From: Deltaproteobacteria bacterium | GTDB lineage: Bacteria > Desulfobacterota > Desulfomonilia > Desulfomonilales > Desulfomonilaceae | Length of the DNA: 46,414 nucleotides | Assembly (NCBI GenBank): GCA_021777225.1 | Contig: JAJYDQ010000030.1 | Span: forward strand, 1 to 46,414 | Direction: 5' to 3' | Part shown: positions 27,680 to 29,229 of the stretch, piece after piece | Layout: each line of letters begins with the position of its first letter | Position numbering within the stretch: position 1 is the stretch's first letter | Position numbers and translations under genes: made by a program | The notes under the pieces: generated by a model | The model's input: only the letters and a program-made list of their open reading frames with translations | Told to the model about the DNA's origin: nothing | Databases searched by the model: none

Positions 27680-27883
27680 TCAGGAAAATCCTTTGGAACC
27701 GGAAGATCCACACGAAGCGCTTAAGGTCTTTTCAATCCCGGTGCGGGAAAAGACCGAAAAACTCTTTTTTGTGTGCTCACTTTCACACGAAGGACATTTA
27801 ACAGGATCATCACACTCGGAAATAAAAAATATCCTTTCGAACTGTTTCCCGCAATCTTCACAAACAAATTCGAAGATAGGCAT
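27680..27883 (-). CDS. FmdB-type zinc-ribbon protein
   Basis: The product is 67 residues. The N-terminus MPIFEFVCEDCGKQFE is typical of the FmdB/CxxC zinc-ribbon family. Two Cys pairs, Cys8-Cys11 and Cys30-Cys33, should bind one zinc. The C-terminal tail is rich in serine and glycine with one further cysteine. The family is often called regulatory after FmdB of formamidase operons, but its role is not settled. A GAGGG ribosome site precedes the ATG, which lies 12 bases after the stop codon of the selenoprotein gene, so the two form one operon. Confidence 0.85.
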   Translation of the reverse strand: MPIFEFVCEDCGKQFERIFFISECDDPVKCPSCESEHTKKSFSVFSRTGIEKTLSASCGSSGSKGFS

Positions 27884-27895
27884 TTTAATCCCTCG

Positions 27896-28192
27896 TTAAC
27901 TGCAACTGCAGCCTGATCCGCATTCTGCTCCCGCCAACTCCGCGGTAGGTCCGAACATGCTATTACGAATATTCAATCCACCGGATTCCTTTATAATCTT
28001 CATCGCGAAAGGATCGACGATGATTGGCAAGTCATTTACAGTATAATGTTCGTCCTCTTCTTTAGGCTCATCCAGAGCCAACCCCATACTGGGGCCGCCT
28101 CAACCATAGCCGCCAAAAAACACACGTAAAGATTGATTTGGCTCAATCTTTTCAATCAGGAATTTTTTTGATTCTTCATCTATAGAAAACAT
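27896..28192 (-). CDS. HesB/IscA-like selenoprotein (TGA read as selenocysteine)
   Basis: Translation from the ATG at 28192 gives 98 residues if the single in-frame TGA at 28100-28102 (codon 31) is read as selenocysteine. The surrounding residues are FFGGYG-U-GGPSMGLALDEP, the place where HesB/IscA-type proteins have a conserved cysteine. The C-terminus CGSGCSCS supplies the other cysteines of the family. Coding quality is equally good before and after the TGA, and an AAGGGG ribosome site stands before the ATG. A hairpin that can serve as SECIS follows the TGA. HesB-like selenoproteins are a known family, but their task, perhaps iron-sulfur or redox chemistry, is not established. Ordinary gene calling would keep only the last 63 codons. 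A sigma-70-like promoter lies upstream and an FmdB gene follows. Confidence 0.9.
28065..28079 (-). promoter_or_regulatory. Candidate bacterial SECIS element
   Basis: On the minus strand GGCTC, the loop TGGAT and GAGCC form a 5-bp hairpin whose loop begins 25 bases after the TGA codon and has a G at its second position. This fits the bacterial SECIS pattern of a short stem, a G in the first two loop bases and a loop about 16-37 bases from the UGA. A second hairpin, CCCC-AGTAT-GGGG at 28082-28094, has a GU in its loop but sits only 9 bases from the UGA, which is closer than usual. Confidence 0.6.
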
Positions 28193-28222
28193 GTTACACC
28201 CCTTCACGATTGATCTGTCAAC

Positions 28223-28251
28223 AATATATTCATATAATTCTATATAGTCAA
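28223..28251 (-). promoter_or_regulatory. Sigma-70-type promoter of the selenoprotein operon
   Basis: Minus-strand TTGACT (28246-28251) and TATATT (28223-28228) are separated by exactly 17 bases. Transcription would start near 28216, about 24 bases before the ATG at 28192. Confidence 0.55.
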
Positions 28252-28309: not shown

Positions 28310-28882
28310 CTAGTCATGATCGTCATTTATGATCTTTATCCTCTGTGATCCTGTCTCATGTTGACTGGGCACAGGTGTTTCGTCTTCCTTTTTTGATCCT
28401 CCAGCAACCTTGTGGTGATTTTTCTTTTGAACTTTTTTGGAACTTCCTGAGTCCTCGGCCATGCCGAATAGTGAATTTTTCTGTTGTGAAGCCTGGAAGG
28501 CTTTAACTATGGCTTCCAGTTTAGCAAATATCTCGGACTGGCCAATCAATATCTTGTCGCCGACTATTACCAGGGGGACCGCAAACCTGGCGTTCTTGTG
28601 GGTAGCTTCGATCTTGAGATAAAGGTCATAGTCGTTAGGTTTGTTGATATCAAATATTTCGGTCTTTATAGGAATTTGTGTTTTCAGATCATCCAATAGT
28701 TCTTTAACGTTTTCACAGTACGGACATTCAGAGGACGTAAAAACTGTTACCACAACAGTTTTCGCTGGTTCGGAAGAGCTTTCGGCAAGCGCTTGATTTT
28801 CTAGAGAGCCCATTAGCCAAAAACACAGAATGAAGCAATTCATTAAGGCTGCCGAAGTGTTGAAATATTTCTTGGGGCTCAT
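28310..28882 (-). CDS. Periplasmic glutaredoxin/thioredoxin-fold protein
   Basis: The product is 190 residues from the ATG at 28882, which overlaps the stop of the upstream gene as ATGA. A signal peptide ends near ALAES at about residue 35. The thioredoxin fold starts with VTVFTSSECPYCENVKELL, so the active site is Cys-Pro-Tyr-Cys as in glutaredoxins. The cis-proline is in RFAVPLVIVGD. After about residue 135 comes a Lys/Ser/Gly/His-rich polar tail with no clear fold. It could be a periplasmic disulfide reductase or a carrier of thiol electrons. A longer start 24 codons upstream is possible but would place the signal peptide inside the protein. Confidence 0.85.
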   Translation of the reverse strand: MSPKKYFNTSAALMNCFILCFWLMGSLENQALAESSSEPAKTVVVTVFTSSECPYCENVKELLDDLKTQIPIKTEIFDINKPNDYDLYLKIEATHKNARFAVPLVIVGDKILIGQSEIFAKLEAIVKAFQASQQKNSLFGMAEDSGSSKKVQKKNHHKVAGGSKKEDETPVPSQHETGSQRIKIINDDHD

Positions 28883-29229
28883 TTCTTGACAGGTTTGAGT
28901 TTCGGTGGAATAGGGTAGTGTACATTCACGTTTTTGTGGGTCCTGAATCCGCAAGCTTCACGTTGTATCAATAGCCAGCGCAGTGTGTCTTCAGCTTTAT
29001 CCACTAAAGAGTTATACTCCGTAATGTGTGTGTTTAAGTTGTCGATGAGGATAGATGATGCGACTGAAGGTTCGGCCTGATATTCTTCAAGGATTTTTTC
29101 TGCTTTGGATTTGGTTAGATTTGCTTTTTCTAAGAGACTGTCGAGCAAAAGGCCAGTGCAGCCGAGTCCTTCGGCCATCTCTTTAACAAAATCTATTTGA
29201 CACTCGGAGATGTCACGGCAGACACCCAT
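28879..29229 (-). CDS. Small cysteine-containing hypothetical protein
   Basis: The product is 116 residues and not of a family I recognise. It begins MGVCRDISECQIDFVKEMAEGLGCTG, with cysteines at 4, 10 and 24, and continues as several helices to a proline- and lysine-rich end. It has no signal peptide. The ATG has a GGAGG ribosome site eight bases upstream. Its stop codon overlaps the start of the periplasmic thioredoxin-fold gene, so the two are translated together and may share a task. A likely promoter lies at 29259-29287. Confidence 0.7.
   Translation of the reverse strand: MGVCRDISECQIDFVKEMAEGLGCTGLLLDSLLEKANLTKSKAEKILEEYQAEPSVASSILIDNLNTHITEYNSLVDKAEDTLRWLLIQREACGFRTHKNVNVHYPIPPKLKPVKK

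Follow-up and report, generated by a model that had tools for sequence, protein, structure and literature searches.

A HesB-like gene with a predicted selenocysteine codon, of a divergent branch and paired with fmdB, in a deltaproteobacterial genome

A 98-codon gene of a Deltaproteobacteria bacterium carries an in-frame UGA at codon 31 that is almost certainly read as selenocysteine (Sec), and its predicted product is a HesB-like protein. The gene is found in assembly GCA_021777225.1, contig JAJYDQ010000030.1, of which forward-strand positions 1 to 46,414 (46,414 nt) form the window analyzed here. The genome that holds it measures 4.04 Mb and is 97.6% complete. This is a real, ordinary selenoprotein gene of a known family. 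Computation brings together the Sec recoding machinery, conservation of the TGA, a SECIS hairpin, the fold, an exchange of Cys and Sec among homologues, a pairing with fmdB and conservation of the promoter. The novelty is modest: the branch is divergent and escapes the curated models, it has fmdB as its fixed partner, and its promoter is private. HesB-like selenoproteins have a history of about 20 years and still lack a clear function, and the constant partner (17/17) and the conserved private promoter provide two handles not available from single genes.

The gene and the signals at its start are as follows.

27896..28192, minus strand: hesB-like selenoprotein gene, ATG at 28192 to TAA at 27896, 98 residues with Sec31
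28100..28102, minus strand: UGA (Sec) codon 31, in frame, assigned from TGA conservation; Cys or Trp is found here in non-Sec homologues
28199..28204, minus strand: Shine-Dalgarno-like AAGGGG, read from the sequence

The sequence-only reading had placed a single TGA at codon 31 of a 98-residue frame, and these coordinates and the residue number are correct. The TGA is the only one in the frame and has the context FFGGYG-U-GGPSMGLALDEP. The complete translation is MFSIDEESKKFLIEKIEPNQSLRVFFGGYG-U-GGPSMGLALDEPKEEDEHYTVNDLPIIVDPFAMKIIKESGGLNIRNSMFGPTAELAGAECGSGCSCS. That reading also supposed the organism to have the selenocysteine machinery, which the genome bears out: SelA (579 bits, cut-off 268), SelB (402 bits, cut-off 242), SelD (350 bits, cut-off 125) and tRNA-Sec (68.4 bits, cut-off 47) all lie above curated cut-offs. 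ARAGORN calls the same tRNA as tRNA-SeC with anticodon TCA. The SelD gene (L018, G000:C14) itself has one in-frame TGA, thus SelD is probably another selenoprotein.

A search of the genomes of 99 relatives, a collection that includes one Syntrophaceae and two Deltaproteobacteria MAGs, gave 78 homologous matches, and 66 of these show a single internal TGA. In the same family, where the relatives' copies show 60–95% identity, each of the 17 genomes with a detected copy has the TGA at codon 31; a further genome of the genus, 82% complete, gave no match. The relative G010 carries its copy at G010:C1:5758852-5759145. As the same codon is TGA in 17/17 family genomes and in dozens of distant ones, its presence is not due to chance. 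Twelve of the 78 matches have an open frame. In seven, none of them from this family, the aligned codon encodes Cys (TGT/TGC); in the other five, all paralogues in this family with two of them in this genome, it encodes Trp (TGG). It had been asked whether Cys or Sec stands at position 31 in related proteins; it is Sec across the family and Cys in more distant non-Sec homologues. An alignment of 26 homologues shows no change at R23, G30, Sec, G33, P34, L40, D41, E42 and D47.

If the TGA were a true stop, the locus would encode a short peptide or be a pseudogene, and translation would start anew at Met36 (28087); the table-11 open reading frame listing does give just a 63 aa ORF from 28087. However, the first 30 codons are conserved in all homologues, and none of the homologues, close ones included, starts at the Met that follows the TGA. 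With the clade pooled, pN/pS is 0.25 ahead of the TGA and 0.30 beyond it, so both flanks are under purifying selection. In addition, the TGA is kept in 17/17 family genomes, and the Cys homologues display one continuous frame. Termination followed by a restart at Met36 is thus excluded in practice and has next to no probability.

Two mutually exclusive hairpins are found downstream of the TGA codon or overlapping it.

28065..28079, minus strand: bSECIS apical hairpin GGCUC-UGGAU-GAGCC, assigned from codon freezing, pairing, RNAalifold and published model limits
28075..28101, minus strand: competing longer hairpin, preferred at minimum energy when the window's sequence is folded alone, 86.5% of cells paired

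The first hairpin has a 5 bp stem and a 5 nt loop with G at position 2, and the distance from UGA to loop is 25 nt. Its free energy is −7.6 to −8.8 kcal/mol. The bSECIS model calls for G within the first two loop positions, a loop of 3–9 nt, a stem of at least 4 bp, a distance of 16–37 nt from the UGA and an MFE of −7.5 or lower (PMC13188914), and the hairpin lies within all of these limits. The consensus across homologues is GGCUC-UGGAY-GAGCC. Counted over up to 30 Sec genes, the codons that form the hairpin hardly vary: GCT encodes Ala in 29/29 (against 14% of Ala codons in the rest of these genes), CTG encodes Leu in 30/30 (39% in the rest) and GAG encodes Glu in 28/29 (48% in the rest). 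In a 29-row alignment 99.3% of the stem cells are paired, compared with 8–48% in controls with slid 3′ partners. The RNAalifold consensus is the same hairpin. As a control, the 12 Cys or Trp homologues all retain just 1–3 of the 5 pairs. Covariation is thin, as the coding sequence is conserved; the one compensatory change, C-G to U-A on both sides, is found in homologue L045, and 19 of 500 shuffles reach as much. An Rfam scan of the region showed no family above chance. Since energy minimization on the window's own sequence yields the other hairpin, the assignment rests on comparison. The longer hairpin was rejected as the SECIS element: its loop is situated approximately 10–12 nt from the UGA, outside the 16–37 nt range, and it is less conserved. 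In homologue L028 (G012:C374), a TAG is found besides the TGA and replaces the Glu codon of the stem (GAC TAG). Beyond it the frame is uninterrupted and fmdB is intact, and the TAG represents either a sequencing error or a decaying gene.

The TGA could also stem from a sequencing or assembly error, or be read as Trp by another code or by readthrough; paralogues in the same genome do carry TGG at the aligned codon. But the TGA is repeated in dozens of independent genomes, tRNA-Sec and SelB are present, and TGA is the normal stop of the same-family hesB homologues L030-L032. In addition, the SECIS hairpin is kept only together with the TGA and has decayed in the Trp paralogues. An error or a Trp codon is therefore very improbable, and selenocysteine is the reading adopted below. 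The Trp paralogues (GGWRGP) are found at L058:305-652 (G000:C106) and L059:252-599 (G000:C102), and as L087-L089 in other family genomes. They exceed the NF038090 cut-off. Of the SECIS they retain the 5′ half, GCT CTG GAT, and the 3′ arm is broken; from their sequences they look like products of a Sec-to-Trp conversion (TGA to TGG) that left a relic of the SECIS.

The best NCBIfam models for the translated protein are the two HesB-selenoprotein models, TIGR01911 and NF038090, with E-values of 6e-12 and 5e-10. The protein (P0001) is under both cut-offs, with 45.7 bits against 85 and 39.8 bits against 66.35, and thus represents a divergent branch and not a typical family member. Both models also hit each of the 26 homologues, at E ≤ 0.001. 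HesB-like selenoproteins are listed with a UxGP motif (PMC13188914); here it reads UGGP, and its U, G and P are invariant in the 26 aligned homologues. That such proteins form a described family agrees with what is on record since the 2000s, and by its sequence the gene is placed with the known HesB-like selenoproteins of TIGR01911/NF038090 as a divergent branch. Automated annotation may end the protein at the UGA or take Met36 as its start, since its scores are also under the cut-offs of the curated selenoprotein models.

A sequence profile compared with PDB gave HI1723 (1e-13), AQ_1857 (2e-13), E. coli IscA (4e-10) and SufA (1e-5). In the profile alignment the Sec column falls on the first ligand cysteine (GC-S-G) of IscA-type proteins. 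E. coli IscA has three invariant Cys ligands, C35, C99 and C101. An AlphaFold2 model shows a pLDDT of 83.9, with the tail, positions 91–98, below 50. A structure search with this predicted model has IscA, SufA and DsrR among its PDB matches, with a TM of about 0.6; IscA, SufA, HI1723 and AQ_1857, which lead the profile matches in PDB, are also among the leading structural matches. These results support a predicted IscA-like fold in which Sec takes the place of the first metal-ligand cysteine. The sequence-only reading had Sec replace a catalytic or metal-binding Cys; the alignment with IscA favors the metal-binding alternative, and the catalytic one is without support. The C-terminal tail, CGSGCSC, is cysteine-rich. 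Tail cysteines are present among the clade but their number and spacing vary, e.g. L034 ends in GCC and L035 in CSGA, which weakens the case for a fixed three-ligand site. A PF01521 profile gave no match over the genome, because the hesB branch and the Trp paralogues are too divergent, and classical A-type carriers are not thereby shown to be absent.

The neighboring features are as follows.

27680..27883, minus strand: FmdB-family zinc ribbon gene, 67 aa, TIGR02605 56 bits against a cut-off of 31
28223..28251, minus strand: sigma-70-like promoter TTGACT-17-TATATT, conserved spacer
28310..28954, minus strand: exported glutaredoxin/thioredoxin-like protein gene (ECPYC), upstream of hesB, syntenic in 9/10 genomes compared

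The fmdB start lies 12 nt past the hesB stop, and the two genes are probably co-transcribed. The pairing with an FmdB zinc ribbon, which had been noticed in the window, holds throughout the clade: fmdB is directly downstream of hesB in 17/17 members, 16 from the survey and a seventeenth read from the sequence. No fmdB was seen within 150 nt of 13 more distant hesB homologues. A search for a HesB-FmdB pair in the literature library used here found none.

Upstream of hesB, the conserved motif TTGACNATATN5TATATGAATA spans 28227-28251 (minus strand). A form of it is present in every clade member; in three of them the second half differs at one or a few positions. At two or fewer mismatches the hesB site is the only one in this genome, and the exact motif is found once in each of 14/18 family genomes, always just upstream of hesB. 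A wider regulon was considered and rejected on these counts. Within the genus, conservation of the 45 bp preceding the ATG is alike at all codon positions (pS 0.16, pN 0.13), as expected of a regulatory and not a coding stretch. A literature search on the motif yielded chance matches only. As the conserved promoter lies between the thioredoxin-like gene and hesB, the former is probably a unit of its own. Positions 28310-29229 (minus strand) contain a small coiled protein together with the exported thioredoxin-like protein (ECPYC), and this segment upstream of hesB is syntenic across the family. A convergent AMP-ligase-like neighbor is syntenic in 9/10 genomes compared.

For expression of the gene, SelB with Sec-tRNA(UCA) would recognize the SECIS hairpin just past the UGA, and Sec would be inserted at residue 31 in place of termination. 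Sec31 would then occupy the place of the first IscA metal-ligand cysteine (Cys35 in E. coli). Together with the tail CGSGCSC it would most likely bind iron or an Fe-S cluster, or else a different soft metal or a chalcogen, and the bound species may be passed on. Such a putative role as a metal or Fe-S carrier is somewhat favored here. The FmdB zinc ribbon is the likely partner, perhaps in physical contact, and the dedicated promoter/operator would govern hesB-fmdB through a repressor or an activator.

Sec31 may instead have a redox or a selenium/sulfur-handling role in a selenoprotein that is no carrier, perhaps together with the upstream thioredoxin-like protein, whose gene is upstream in 9/10 genomes. 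A 2026 review expects redox roles for most uncharacterized selenoproteins (PMC13188914), and the C-terminal cysteines are not strictly fixed. Against this, the fold is IscA-like with Sec at a ligand-Cys position, the translation has no CxxU/UxxC redox motif, and the promoter separates hesB from the thioredoxin-like gene. A non-carrier role is a serious though less favored possibility. It opposes the functional half of the explanation alone, and its probability is counted within the best explanation. Beyond the carrier role, it is conceivable but doubtful that hesB(Sec)-fmdB is a dedicated two-gene metal/selenium module with a regulator that has TTGACNATATN5TATATGAATA as its one target, and that a second hesB copy in this family, by going from Sec to Trp, lost the first ligand and took on a new function.

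A 2006 count of 25 bacterial selenoprotein families included the HesB-like one (PMC1794560), and members are described from Deltaproteobacteria, e.g. Syntrophobacter, Syntrophus, Geobacter and Desulfovibrio (PMC1794560; PMC13188914). Proteins of TIGR01911 (HesB_rel_seleno) and NF038090 (IscA_HesB_Se) likewise display a small IscA fold, Sec at the conserved Cys and UxGP. The branch in the window differs from them in that it lies below the cut-offs, shares 30–41% identity with Sec forms from other families, carries FFGGYGUGGP and an altered C-terminal half, and has fmdB immediately downstream. MMJJ_08070 of M. maripaludis, found through mutagenesis and 75Se labelling and reported as of unclear function (PMC11097638), is also a HesB-like selenoprotein, but an archaeal one; archaeal SECIS elements are mostly found in the 3′-UTR (PMC13188914). 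IscA, SufA and ErpA share the fold, and their first ligand Cys aligns with Sec31 of the window protein, on which PF01521 scores below its cut-off. The window protein has Sec for Cys and a Pro after the UxG motif, and its tail is variable and Cys-rich, whereas that of IscA, SufA and ErpA is a fixed CGCG.
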